33,182 bases of DNA from Micromonospora sp. CPCC 205371 (GTDB lineage: Bacteria > Actinomycetota > Actinomycetes > Mycobacteriales > Micromonosporaceae). Under the pieces are notes generated by a model, which searched no databases, was not told the origin of the DNA, and was given only the letters and a program-made list of their open reading frames with translations. Positions 2,442-6,261 of the stretch are shown here, one piece after another; the stretch's first letter is position 1; every line of letters starts with the position of its first letter. A program made the translations under genes and the position numbers. Location: positions 19,630 through 52,811 of the forward strand of contig NZ_JAIBNX010000021.1 of NCBI RefSeq assembly GCF_026130045.1. Direction: 5' to 3'.

Positions 2442-2516
2442 GGGCGATTGGCGCAGTGGGAGCGCGCTTCCTTGACACGGAAGAGGTCACTGGTTCAAAC
2501 CCAGTATCGCCCACCA
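2442..2516 (+). tRNA. tRNA-Val(GAC)
   Basis: Acceptor stem GGGCGAT/ATCGCCC, anticodon stem CTTCC/GGAAG with loop TTGACAC (GAC at 2474-2476), T-loop TTCAAAC. Unlike its two neighbours, the 3' CCA is encoded (2514-2516). The Gly-Cys-Val order is common in actinobacterial genomes. Confidence 0.97.
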
Positions 2517-2529
2517 TCAACAACAGCTC

Positions 2530-2560
2530 AGGCCCGCGTCGACACACCCGACGTGGGCCT
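2530..2560 (+). terminator. Hairpin terminator after the tRNA cluster
   Basis: A 12-bp stem (2530-2541 with 2549-2560, one G-U wobble) closes a 7-base loop just after tRNA-Val. It is followed by a pyrimidine-rich stretch (CCTGCTTCCCC) rather than a clean U-tract, as is usual in very GC-rich genomes. Confidence 0.6.
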
Positions 2561-2620
2561 CCTGCTTCCCCGCACTCTCCGCGCCACGCTCTCCGCGCCG
2601 CAGGAGCGCTCCCTCCCGCC

Positions 2621-2677
2621 GATCAAGGGCGAACGCACGTGGTTGGATCTCACTTCCGCGTGCATTCGCCCTTGATC
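2621..2677 (+). repeat. 57-bp palindromic repeat, family I, copy A
   Basis: Two 22-base arms (2621-2642 and 2656-2677; 20 of 22 positions complementary) flank a 13-base loop. The ends read GATCAAGGGCG inward on both strands. A second copy in opposite orientation lies at 17874-17930, with the same arm and loop lengths and about 51 of 57 bases identical. REP-like, or a non-autonomous mobile palindrome. Confidence 0.8.
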
Positions 2678-2682
2678 CATGC

Positions 2683-2715
2683 AAACGGCCTTGATCGACG
2701 CGCAGAAGGCCGTTT
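2683..2715. repeat. Perfect 10-bp-stem hairpin
   Basis: AAACGGCCTT (2683-2692) and AAGGCCGTTT (2706-2715) are perfect complements around a 13-base loop, 5 bases after the family I repeat. The left arm runs into TTGATC, the same end word as the neighbouring repeat. No U-tract follows, so a terminator role is not evident. Confidence 0.6.
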
Positions 2716-2839
2716 CCCGGGCGTGCCGACCCTTGCTAGCGCACGCGACCTGAACCGCCGGCAGAAGGACGGGGAAACCGTCGGTCGGCGCCCTCGGCAG
2801 CGGTGAATGTCGATCGACGAACGGGCATGACAGGTACAG

Positions 2840-2853
2840 TCTATATATGTAGA
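2840..2853 (+). promoter_or_regulatory. Possible PadR operator and promoter
   Basis: TCTATATATGTAGA is a near-palindrome (12 of 14 positions) in an unusually AT-rich patch 8 bases before the PadR ATG. PadR proteins often repress their own operon through AT-rich dyads. TGACAG (2828-2833) and TAGAGT (2850-2855), 16 bases apart, could be -35/-10 boxes overlapping it. That would place the transcript start at about the ATG, giving a leaderless mRNA, consistent with the lack of a ribosome binding site. Inference. Confidence 0.45.
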
Positions 2854-2861
2854 GTTTACTC

Positions 2862-3185
2862 ATGCCTCGAACTCCCAACTCATCGCCGCAAACGCTGAGC
2901 GTGCTGGCGGCCCTGCTAGCGGAGCCGTCGCGCTGGCGACACGGTTACGAGCTCTCCAAGGAGACAGGGCTCGCGAGTGGCTCTCTCTATCCGATCCTGA
3001 TGCGGCTGACGCAGCAAGGCATGCTCGAAGCCGAGTGGCAGTCTCCTGTGGCCCCGGGGCGACCGGCGCGCCATGCCTACCGGCTCACGTCAGGAGGCGT
3101 CGCCTTGGCACGGACCCGGTTGGCGGAACGTGATAGGCACAGCGCGCCGGCGCAGGCGAGGCCCGCGATGAGGGTGGCGTGGTGA
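2862..3185 (+). CDS. PadR-family transcriptional regulator
   Basis: A 107-residue protein from ATG 2862. It is essentially a single PadR winged helix: SVLAALLAEPSRWRHGYEL, then the recognition-helix region GLASGSLYPILMRLTQQGMLEAEW, then a wing (GRPARHAYRLTSGG), ending in a short helix and a basic tail. It lacks the long C-terminal coiled-coil of larger PadR proteins, as do many small family members that act as dimers. No ribosome binding site precedes the start. Its stop overlaps the GTG start of the next gene, so the two are translationally coupled. PadR regulators commonly sit directly upstream of the membrane protein they control, so the signal-peptidase-like gene is the likely target. Confidence 0.9.
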   Translation: MPRTPNSSPQTLSVLAALLAEPSRWRHGYELSKETGLASGSLYPILMRLTQQGMLEAEWQSPVAPGRPARHAYRLTSGGVALARTRLAERDRHSAPAQARPAMRVAW

Positions 3186-3913
3186 CCGCCTCCGAGACGC
3201 CGACCAGCGTCTCGGGAAGCGTGGTCCGACGGTGTGCGCGCGCGATCCTGACCAGAGCCGTCCGGCGCGGCGCTGCCCGAGGCGGCGTCTGGGGAGAAGC
3301 GGTGCTAGCCGAGATGGAGGAGGCGCGCACAGACGTGGAAGCCATCCGCTGGGCGGCTGGCGGCCTGTGGGTGTCCTGGCGGGAGCGCACGGGCCGGGTC
3401 GGCATCGTCGCGGCGGTGTTCGGCTGGCTCTTCGGTGGTGGCTGGATCAGAAGGTTGGCCGTCGTCGCGGTTCTGCTGGTCGGCCTTGCTCTCCTGATCC
3501 ACCAGTTCGTCCTGACGGTCGTCTACGTGCCTTCCGTGACGATGGAGCCGGGCGTCCGGGCCGGCGATCGGGTGTTGGTCGACAGGGTCGGCTTTCGGCT
3601 GACGGGCCTGGACGTGGGGGACACCATCGTCGTGTCACCGATGGGCTCCGGATACACGCTGCGGGTGGTGGGCCTTCCCGGTGATGAGCTCGCGTGCCGC
3701 GACGGAAAGCTGTTCCGCAACGGCAGTCCGGCCAACGAGCCATATCTGGCGGCGGACACCACCACCGAGTGCCAGGCGGTGGCGGTTCCCGACGGCCACG
3801 TCTACCTCTTGGGGGACAACCGGGCGAGCGCCCGTGACTCCCGGGTCGACGGTCCGATGGCGGAGGACAAGGTGGCCGGCCGCGTCGTCACCAGGGTCTC
3901 GGCGGCAGACTAA
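3182..3913 (+). CDS. Signal-peptidase-fold (S26) membrane protein lacking the catalytic dyad
   Basis: GTG 3182 overlaps the PadR stop (GTGA) with GAGGG a few bases upstream; GTG 3179 is one codon earlier and residue numbers here count from it (244 residues). About 70 polar residues of unknown function precede a hydrophobic region with a membrane segment (about 92-113), followed by an S26 signal peptidase domain. Box B reads VPSVTMEP where active enzymes have PSxSM, so the nucleophile serine is Thr121 (ACG). Box D reads TLRVVGLPGD where enzymes have KR before the GLPGD, so the general-base lysine is Leu161 (CTG). Box E (LLGDNRASARDSR) is kept but its internal serine is displaced. The fold is clear, but normal Ser/Lys or Ser/His peptidase chemistry is not supported. 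A binding, regulatory or atypical threonine enzyme role is possible. PadR coupling suggests a conditional membrane function. Confidence 0.85.
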   Translation: MTASETPTSVSGSVVRRCARAILTRAVRRGAARGGVWGEAVLAEMEEARTDVEAIRWAAGGLWVSWRERTGRVGIVAAVFGWLFGGGWIRRLAVVAVLLVGLALLIHQFVLTVVYVPSVTMEPGVRAGDRVLVDRVGFRLTGLDVGDTIVVSPMGSGYTLRVVGLPGDELACRDGKLFRNGSPANEPYLAADTTTECQAVAVPDGHVYLLGDNRASARDSRVDGPMAEDKVAGRVVTRVSAAD

Positions 3914-3955
3914 CGACCTCGGGAAGACGGGCCCAATGACGATGACGAAGGCGCT

Positions 3956-4138
3956 TCAGCAGCAGCTTGCCGTTGGGTTGTCGTCGCGCCGGTCGCAGCG
4001 CTGGCGTTCGAAGTCTCGCCGGGACAGCACCGGCTCCTCCGGGTGGAGGCGCCGGTACCGCTCGACGTAATGGTCGTACTCGGCCCCGCCGGTCAGCTCT
4101 CGCAAGTACCAGCGGATGGCGGCGAGCACTCGCCTCAT
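3956..4138 (-). CDS. ybdD: YbdD/YjiX-family small protein, CstA partner
   Basis: A 60-residue protein whose ATG (4138-4136) overlaps the cstA stop as ATGA. It matches the YbdD/YjiX family (putative selenoprotein family, formerly DUF466): RWYLRELTGGAEYDHYVERY, then RRLHPEEPVLSRRDFERQR, and a terminal Cys-Cys. Members are nearly always encoded directly after CstA- or BtsT-type pyruvate/peptide transporters and are needed with them in Escherichia coli, where the exact function remains unclear. The tail before the CC is more polar than the usual glycine-rich RCC ending. Easy to miss because a much longer spurious frame covers it. Its stop is 42 bases from the convergent signal-peptidase-like gene, with no clear terminator between. 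Confidence 0.88.
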   Translation of the reverse strand: MRRVLAAIRWYLRELTGGAEYDHYVERYRRLHPEEPVLSRRDFERQRCDRRDDNPTASCC

Positions 4139-6261
4139 GTGCCCGTCCCGACGAGTTCCCGCTTCTCCTCGGCGGTGGCGAACAGGCCGGACGGGGCGAC
4201 GATCTTCGACTCCACGAAGGGTTCCTCGGTCGTGGGCAGCGGCTCCCGGGATCGGATCGCCTTCCAGCACACCCACAACGCGTTGGCGATGACGAGTATG
4301 ACGAGGATCGCGAAGAGCGCCGACAGCACACCGTCCACGGTGGAGTTGGTGACGACGGCTCGCATGTCGTCGAGGCTCTTGGCAGGTGCCAGTACCTCGC
4401 CGCGGTCGAGGGCGTCGGCGTACCGGTCGCGCTGTGCGAAGAAGCCGATCGCCGGGTTTTCGGAGAACACCTTCTGCCAGCTCGCGGTCAGCGTGACGGC
4501 GGCGTCCCACGCGAGCGGCACGCCGGTGACCCAGGCCCACTTGAGGCGGCCGCTCTTGACCAGGATCGTCGTGGCGACCGCCAAGGCGACCGCGGCGAGG
4601 AGCTGGTTGGCGATACCGAAGAGCGGGAAGAGCTGGTTGATGCCGCCGAGCGGGTTGGTCACGCCGGTGTAGAGGAAGTAGCCCCAGGCGAGCACGACGA
4701 CGGCACTGGTGGCCCACAGTCCCGGCTTCCAGCTGACCCGGCCGATCGGCTTCCAGATGTTGCCGAGCGTGTCCTGCAGCATGAATCGCCCGACGCGGGT
4801 GCCGGCGTCCACTGTGGTCAGGATGAAGAGCGCCTCGAACATGATGGCGAAGTGGTACCAGAATGCCTTCAGGGAGGCGCCGCCGAGTACAGAGGCGAAG
4901 ATCTCGGACATGCCCACGGCGAGTGTGGGCGCGCCGCCCGTGCGCGCGACCAGCGTCTGCTCTTCGACCGCCGCGGCGGCGGCGCTCAGCTCCTGGGGTG
5001 AGATGGTGAAGCCCAGGTTGGCGACGGCGGCCGACGCGCTCTCCACTGTAGAGCCGACGACGCCGGCCGGGGAGTTCATCGCGAAGTACAGGCCCGGTTC
5101 GAGGGCGCAGGCCGCGATGAGCGCCATGACGGCGACGAAGGACTCCATCAGCATGGCGCCGTAGCCGACGAGCCGCACCTGCGACTCCTTCTGGATCATC
5201 TTGGGTGTCGTGCCGGAGGCGATCAGGGCGTGGAACCCGGACAGCGCGCCGCAGGCGATGATGATGAACACGAACGGGAAGAGCTCGCCGGAGAAGACCG
5301 GGCCGGTGCCGGTGCTAGCGAACTTCGTGACCGCCTCGGTCTGTAGCGCGGGGGCGGCGATGAGCACGCCGATGGCGAGCAGGCCGATGGTGCCTACCTT
5401 CATGAACGTCGACAGGTAGTCACGGGGCGCCAGGAGCATCCAGACCGGCAGCACCGAGGCGAAGAAGCCGTACACGACCAGGCAGATCGCGAGCGTCTCG
5501 GGGCTGAGCGTAAACGTGTCGGCGAGACTGGACTCCTGCACCCAGCCGCCGGCGGCGATCGCGAGCAGCAGCAGGCCGACGCCGATGACGGTGGTCTCGA
5601 TGACCCGGCCGGGTCGCAGTATCCGCAGGTAGAAGCCCATGAAGAGGGCGATCGGGATGGTCATCGCGATCGAGAAGGTGCCCCACGGCGACTTGGCCAG
5701 GGCGTTGACGACCACGAGCGCCAGCACCGCCAGCAGGATGATCATGATGGAGAAGACGGCCACGAGCGCGGCGATGCCGCCGACCGCGCCGATCTCGTCC
5801 CGCGCCATCTGCCCCAGGCTCTTGCCGTTGCGGCGCATCGAGAAGAACAGGATCACCATGTCCTGCACCGCGCCGGCGAAGATCACGCCGAAGACGATCC
5901 ACATCGTGCCGGGCAGGTACCCCATCTGCGCGGCGAGCACGGGGCCGACCAGCGGGCCGGCGCCGGCGATCGCGGCGAAGTGGTGCCCGACCAGGATGCG
6001 GCGGTCGGTCGGCTGGTAGTCGATGCCGTTGTCGAGCCGCTCGCCGGGTGTGGCCCGTCGGTCGTCGACCCTCAGCACCTTGTTGGCGATGAAGCGGGCG
6101 TAGAACCGGTACGCGATCACGTAGGACGCGATGGCGGCGACGACCAGCCAGACCGCGGAGATCTCCTCGCCGCGGGAGAGGGCGAGGACGCCCCAGGCGA
6201 TGGCACCGGCGATTGCCACAGTGGACCAGATGATTACGGAGCGTAGTTTCGATCGGGACAC
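4135..6261 (-). CDS. cstA: Carbon starvation protein CstA (pyruvate/peptide transporter)
   Basis: A 708-residue polytopic membrane protein. The GTG start at 6261 is supported by AGGAGG four bases upstream. The family signature is present: GHHFAAIAGAGPLVGPVLAA, then GYLPGTMWIVFGVIFAGAVQDM, and later SGFHALIASGTTPKMI. Hydrophobic segments throughout are consistent with the 15 or more helices of the family. In E. coli CstA takes up pyruvate (and was first linked to peptides) under carbon limitation. The gene is coupled to ybdD by an ATGA overlap and is divergent from a sodium:solute symporter across about 148 bases, so both may share a control region. No obvious CRP-like site was found there. 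Confidence 0.93.
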   Translation of the reverse strand: MSRSKLRSVIIWSTVAIAGAIAWGVLALSRGEEISAVWLVVAAIASYVIAYRFYARFIANKVLRVDDRRATPGERLDNGIDYQPTDRRILVGHHFAAIAGAGPLVGPVLAAQMGYLPGTMWIVFGVIFAGAVQDMVILFFSMRRNGKSLGQMARDEIGAVGGIAALVAVFSIMIILLAVLALVVVNALAKSPWGTFSIAMTIPIALFMGFYLRILRPGRVIETTVIGVGLLLLAIAAGGWVQESSLADTFTLSPETLAICLVVYGFFASVLPVWMLLAPRDYLSTFMKVGTIGLLAIGVLIAAPALQTEAVTKFASTGTGPVFSGELFPFVFIIIACGALSGFHALIASGTTPKMIQKESQVRLVGYGAMLMESFVAVMALIAACALEPGLYFAMNSPAGVVGSTVESASAAVANLGFTISPQELSAAAAAVEEQTLVARTGGAPTLAVGMSEIFASVLGGASLKAFWYHFAIMFEALFILTTVDAGTRVGRFMLQDTLGNIWKPIGRVSWKPGLWATSAVVVLAWGYFLYTGVTNPLGGINQLFPLFGIANQLLAAVALAVATTILVKSGRLKWAWVTGVPLAWDAAVTLTASWQKVFSENPAIGFFAQRDRYADALDRGEVLAPAKSLDDMRAVVTNSTVDGVLSALFAILVILVIANALWVCWKAIRSREPLPTTEEPFVESKIVAPSGLFATAEEKRELVGTGT

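Follow-up and report, generated by a model that had tools for sequence, protein, structure and literature searches.

The window analysed here (the whole 33,182-nucleotide stretch of Micromonospora sp. CPCC 205371 DNA) contains a gene for a PadR-family regulator and, overlapping its end by 4 bases, an open reading frame for a membrane-anchored homologue of type I signal peptidases (SPases; family S26) that lacks the Ser-Lys dyad (Table 1). Three tRNA genes (Gly-GCC, Cys-GCA and Val-GAC, positions 2249-2516) lie directly upstream of the PadR-S26 unit.

Table 1. Features of the PadR-S26 locus, in positions of the window
Feature	Position	Strand	Remarks
Sigma-70-like promoter ATGACA-17-TAGAGT of the PadR-S26 operon	2827..2855	+	predicted; consensus match
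Operator-like element AGTCTATATATGTAGAGTTT	2838..2857	+	20 bp; 4 nt before PadR start codon; overlaps predicted -10
PadR-family transcriptional regulator	2862..3185	+	107 aa; Pfam PadR E 8.9e-11
S26 signal-peptidase homologue without Ser-Lys dyad	3182..3913	+	243 aa; GTG start overlaps PadR stop; alternative GTG 3179
N-terminal PadR-partner domain (WGEAVLAE...RWAAGG...RER)	3218..3406	+	residues 13-75; predicted helices; probably cytoplasmic
Peptidase_S26 domain	3449..3895	+	Pfam match, residues 90-238
Transmembrane helix, about residues 92-112, Arg-Arg ahead of helix	3455..3517	+	hydropathy peak windows start at 92-93; model helix 88-110
Thr120 (ACG), position of catalytic Ser	3539..3541	+	alignment and codons
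Leu160 (CTG), position of catalytic Lys	3659..3661	+	alignment and codons
Cys172	3695..3697	+	invariant in 45/45 members
Cys197	3770..3772	+	invariant in 45/45 members
Ala217, position of E. coli SPase I Ser278 (Lys-stabilising residue)	3830..3832	+	alignment

Catalytic residues of the S26 protein

The S26 gene has a codon-position GC of 0.72/0.535/0.86, which is consistent with a real gene, and its product matched both Peptidase_S26 of Pfam (E 1.1e-29) and TIGR02227 of NCBIfam (E 5.1e-31). The S26 fold with boxes B, D and E is present, with VPSVTMEP as box B, GYTLRVVGLPGD as box D and the sequence GDNRASARDSR, whereas the catalytic Ser and Lys (or Ser and His) are absent. Alignment against SpsB of Staphylococcus aureus placed Thr120 at the catalytic Ser and Leu160 at the catalytic Lys. 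A preliminary description of this DNA had claimed this reading frame, these motifs and both substitutions, and all were borne out; its residue numbers, 121 and 161, match the alternative GTG start, but counted from the start at 3182 the residues are 120 and 160. A third loss went unmentioned there, namely Ala217 in place of Ser278, which in E. coli SPase I helps to stabilise the catalytic Lys, according to the accessible part of PMC4049620. Cys197 is a possible disulfide partner of Cys172. The same genome also encodes two ordinary SPases with the S and K motifs, and gave weaker S26 matches on three further contigs. With two ordinary SPases at hand, the cell presumably need not rely on the window protein for signal peptide cleavage.

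An AlphaFold2 model of the window protein, made from an 18-row alignment, reached a mean pLDDT of 75.0 and a pTM of 0.49, with residues 111-127 below 50; because this low confidence falls around box B, the active site and cleft are not readable from the model. A Foldseek search of the PDB returned 22 matches at E ≤0.001, all of them SPases and SipA, with SipA at the top (4n31, E 5.2e-7) followed by SpsB.

Promoter and operator-like element

The predicted promoter is the sole such site within positions 2500-4200, where shuffled sequences gave a mean of 0.1. The operator-like element belongs to a consensus found before padR across the family, AGTC(G/T)A..TATGTAGAnTTT, in which the core TATGTAGAnTTT is nearly invariant, and a related element was present in all 45 upstream regions. 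It occurred with at most 4 mismatches in 35 of the 45 real upstreams, and the best shuffled sequences had 5 mismatches (2 of 2250), the consensus being derived from the same sequences that it scores. The sites end 4-6 nt before the assigned start codon in 41 of 45 members; in the others (L085, L087, L091 and L092) the assigned TTG start is probably too far downstream, which accounts for their distance of 13-14 nt. Two members, L034 and L035, have an additional inverted copy of the element further upstream of padR.

We also examined how often the element occurs elsewhere, in scans that find only sites within the stated mismatches and miss more divergent ones. With up to 3 mismatches, a single copy was found in the 9.36 Mb genome that contains the window. 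With up to 2 mismatches, 30 genomes of one genus (that of G068) had one copy per carrier of the family (10 of 10, each at the family locus) and none in the 20 non-carriers. A half-site search of the window's own genome with up to 1 mismatch returned four places: the element of Table 1, one site before another PadR gene (contig C454), and two sites with no PadR gene in view. The PadR gene on C454 (locus L177) is of a related kind, has an operator-like element of its own and precedes a membrane partner that is apparently split over several frames. Since the element is single-copy and bound to the locus, PadR is probably dedicated to its own operon, and the near-private character of the element suggests a self-contained regulated unit.

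The PadR-linked family

An initial search of 41 genomes yielded three relatives. All three loci contain PadR, and the proteins carry Ala in the Ser column and, respectively, Lys, Arg and Lys in the Lys column. A scan of genome contigs with only two peptide patterns gave 17 named loci in eight genera, all Micromonosporaceae. The search of 354 Micromonosporaceae genomes found relatives in 45, all at E ≤7.5e-53 and one (G334) without the N-terminal domain; a further genome, G330, carries a degraded copy, and 46 genomes of the 354 are thus carriers when it is counted. Together with one member from the peptide-pattern scan, this search set makes up 47 distinct members.

The coupling to PadR claimed in the preliminary description, seen in the window as the overlap GTGA (3182-3185), recurs in nearly the whole family: PadR lies directly upstream in 45 of the 47 members, the exceptions being L078, with a PadR frame of only 57 residues, and L097, with no detectable PadR. 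The junction was a 4-base overlap in 39 of 45 members, a 1-base overlap in 4 and a 2-base gap in 2, where each start was taken as the ATG or GTG nearest the PadR stop, a choice that favours overlaps. L078 (S/I state) and L097 (degraded, without box B) were excluded from the 45-member alignment, from the tree and from all counts based on them. The window has the traits of this family, namely an overlapping PadR gene upstream, the N-terminal WGEAxLAE...RW domain and the operator-like element; L090 is the only member noted without that domain. Besides PadR, no gene beside the S26 gene was common to the 18 loci compared, and the remaining shared clusters, among the 14 largest listed, were either a four-locus Actinoplanes group or opposite-strand frames of the two genes themselves.

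Beyond Micromonosporaceae, no member was found among 397 genomes sampled from the order, with at most 7 candidates scored per genome; long-form matches came only from G000, G011 and G239, all Micromonosporaceae, and the other matches at E ≤1e-35 started at model position 48 or later, which is the S26 part.

The N-terminal domain

The preliminary description had noted an extra N-terminal region; new here is that this region recurs in other PadR-linked membrane proteins. Five of its residues (L23, W37, A40, E44 and W57) are invariant in 25 members, and it gave no convincing Pfam match in the 45 members. A profile of the domain also found membrane proteins outside the S26 family, apparently multi-spanning as judged by eye. 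Among 18 such Micromonosporaceae loci that were fetched, 13 have a WGxAM motif, and PadR adjoins 12 of these 13 (none was in view at L141); the five others (L140 and L144-L147) lack the motif and were set aside as probable chance matches. Of 148 genomes of the class searched with a profile built from the 13 motif-bearing loci, 7 gave matches at E ≤1e-4: the window's own genome (E 1.1e-5) and, spread over five other families, six more (E ≤7.6e-14). PadR is directly upstream in all six loci of the other families, although that of L182 is only partly within an open frame.

Recurrent linkage to PadR in both S26 and non-S26 proteins makes the N-terminal domain look like a general PadR-partner module. 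A helical domain resembling RxxWGxAMxxE...RWxFAxG was observed in the PadR-adjoining membrane proteins of L106, L107, L132-L139, L142, L143 and L178-L183, and of the 11 PadR genes of non-S26 carriers whose upstreams were read, 6 are preceded by a palindromic CTCTA...TAGAGTT element. The domain had no Pfam match in the two such proteins scanned, and we regard it as a candidate for a new domain family.

Loss of the dyad and selection

Among homologues with the same N-terminus and a PadR neighbour, collected as the preliminary description had proposed, loss of the dyad is widespread. Only 16 of the 45 aligned members keep both Ser and Lys, and in the remaining 29 the dyad is incomplete. Column by column, Ser is kept in 27 members and lost in 18, Lys is kept in 19 and lost in 26, and both are lost in 15. 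The replacements are varied: A, G, T, E or P for Ser, and R, D, L, Q, M, E, V, Y or S for Lys. The position equivalent to Ser278 (residue 217) is Ser in all 16 dyad-bearing members, versus 7 of the 29 dyad-less ones. Lys and this Ser were lost together in 22 members and kept together in 19, with Lys lost and Ser kept in 4 and the reverse in none; however, the correlation is not significant on the tree, because only 3 independent pairs fall on its starred branches. Ten positions are invariant in all 45 members, including Arg161, Gly167, Asp168, Cys172, Cys197, Asp212 and Arg214.

A tree of the 45 members and 8 ordinary SPases, built without the two catalytic columns, placed the family in one clade against the ordinary enzymes (support 99/98). 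The best tree requires a minimum of 7 changes in dyad state, with minima of 12 for the Ser column and 6 for the Lys column; these counts carry no direction and depend on this one tree because several deep branches within the family are weakly supported. Clades entirely without Lys have diversified further. Among close pairs chosen by hand, in which L036 and L039 were used twice and the N-terminally truncated L090 was included, dN/dS (Nei-Gojobori) ranged from 0.18 to 0.50 across nine pairs lacking the dyad and from 0.18 to 0.43 across seven pairs that retain it. For the window protein and its nearest full-length relative, L069, it was about 0.50 overall, with values of 0.33 for the N-terminal domain and 0.45 for the S26 part. 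These figures indicate repeated loss of catalysis in a protein that remained under selection. Decay does happen close to the window protein, as L090, which lost the N-terminal domain, and the degraded L097 are among its nearest relatives.

The proposal that the protein is a pseudo-protease fits the window protein and the 29 dyad-less members but not the family throughout, as the other 16 retain Ser and Lys and the dyad state has changed several times; the family as such cannot be called dead, and catalysis may matter in part of it. A lone decayed or misread gene was rejected as the main reading, given the 29 dyad-less relatives and a dN/dS below 1 in nine close pairs. Sequencing error was rejected on the same two grounds, and it would need two separate codons and a third, linked position all to be wrong.

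A proposed function

We favour, with moderate confidence, reading the locus as an autoregulated PadR unit, complete in itself, with a membrane product that binds exported peptides or an inhibitor resembling a peptide. PadR would repress its own promoter from the operator over the -10 region, a step read from the sequence, in which we have good confidence. The second, co-translated protein would sit in the membrane with its small helical domain inside the cell and its S26 fold outside. Given the residues at its active site, we are highly confident that it is non-catalytic in this species; with substitutions at the Ser, at the Lys and at the Ser that supports the Lys, binding is its most likely mode of action. 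The helical domain would touch PadR inside the cell, which the recurrent PadR linkage makes somewhat probable. The old substrate cleft might hold an extended exported peptide or a peptide-like inhibitor, the most likely class of ligand, and the role of the S26 domain as the signal-binding part is a tentative assignment to which we give slightly less than an even chance. As the operator-like element seems to be confined to this operon, the S26 protein itself is most likely the regulated output, and its level would rise on relief of PadR, through a ligand bound to PadR or via the N-terminal domain. If PadR has a single target, a pure sensor role would lack an output.

The S26 protein could instead be a chaperone without catalytic activity, presenting exported proteins to a sortase, a translocase or LepB, with PadR merely sensing a small molecule. 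Its best fold match, SipA, which likewise has neither Ser nor Lys and which the accessible part of PMC4049620 describes as essential for pilus polymerisation, speaks for such an accessory role. However, no gene besides PadR was common to the 18 compared loci, and this reading leaves the PadR-partner domain unexplained; we consider it unlikely.

It also seems doubtful, at a similarly low probability, that the protein is a signal-peptidase-shaped receptor, whose outer S26 fold would bind unprocessed signal peptides or arylomycin-type lipopeptides that inhibit signal peptidase, and signal to PadR via the N-terminal domain. Were the receptor reading true, a PadR-partner domain and a worn-out enzyme would replace a two-component system for sensing export stress, and the members that keep Ser and Lys would serve the same switch as inducible reserve peptidases.

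Decay offers a further explanation, in which the gene for a second, inducible signal peptidase has fallen out of use and is on the way to becoming a pseudogene. The repeated loss of the dyad with varied replacements at both residues, the truncated and degraded genes among the nearest relatives, and the patchy presence of the family (46 of 354 genomes, including the degraded copy) are all in keeping with this. However, dN/dS in the dyad-less pairs is similar to that in the dyad-bearing pairs, ten positions are invariant, the open frame, the PadR coupling and the operator-like element are all retained in dyad-less members, and whole Lys-less clades have diversified further. We therefore consider decay quite improbable. 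That the protein still cuts, with Thr120 or some other residue doing the work of the dyad, is conceivable insofar as a Thr nucleophile is possible in principle and 16 of 45 relatives retain a normal dyad, but with no Lys or His at the base position, the Ser278 equivalent lost as well, and Ala, Gly, Glu or Pro at the position of Thr120 in relatives, it is highly improbable.

Comparison with known systems

The window protein shares with ordinary LepB/SPase I enzymes the S26 domain, boxes D and E and the PSxxM sequence, and differs from them in lacking the Ser-Lys dyad, in its extra N-terminal domain and in its coupling to PadR. In S. aureus, spsA adjoins the gene of the active SPase. SpsA is, like the window protein, a dispensable SPase homologue without two conserved catalytic residues in a cell that has an active SPase; a PadR link is not mentioned in the accessible part of the source (PMC12445088).

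SipA of Streptococcus pyogenes (PDB 4n31 and 4k8w) is alike in its S26 fold, its membrane helix, the replacement of both Ser and Lys and the loss of the Ser278 equivalent. As far as the accessible part of PMC4049620 goes, it has no detected peptidase activity and keeps the peptide cleft, and in the crystal it binds a peptide in a manner similar to that of SPase I with arylomycin. Unlike the window protein, SipA belongs to a pilus gene cluster and carries Asp and Gly as its replacements, and the same part of that source mentions neither a PadR partner nor a PadR-partner domain. A pilus or sortase cluster was not apparent in the PadR-linked family, where PadR was the only gene common beside the S26 gene when 18 loci were compared collectively.

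On the regulatory side, LstR and LltR of Listeria are PadR repressors that mainly control their own operons, and that of LstR includes a RodA/FtsW homologue unable to replace that essential envelope enzyme (accessible part of PMC6624303). The likeness thus extends to a PadR that mainly regulates its own operon and, with LstR, to a homologue of an essential envelope enzyme; in that same part, the Listeria operons differ in enzyme family, in extra genes such as sigC and in phylum. HAAS-PadR dyads are alike in that a PadR gene is coupled to a membrane protein with a helical domain proposed to talk to PadR (accessible part of PMC11237479), and the window does have a standalone PadR gene coupled to a membrane protein gene. 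The outer part of the window protein, in contrast, is an S26 fold. The 12 Pfam families that the 45 members matched at E ≤5 do not include HAAS/DUF1700 (DUF1129-like), nor did it match in the two non-S26 carriers scanned, although a distant relation is possible. Titles and abstract openings, with subscription journals thinly covered, yielded no publication on a PadR-signal peptidase pair.

What is new is the combination, as both dead SPases and units of PadR with a membrane protein are already known kinds. The dead signal peptidases in print, SipA and SpsA, are described singly in the accessible parts of their sources, whereas here one family has lost the dyad many times under continued selection. 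Here the loss is linked with a dedicated PadR gene as well as with a partner domain, one with no match in our Pfam scans, that recurs in other PadR-linked membrane proteins, and the family allows a direct test of whether a peptidase fold became a binder or a receptor.
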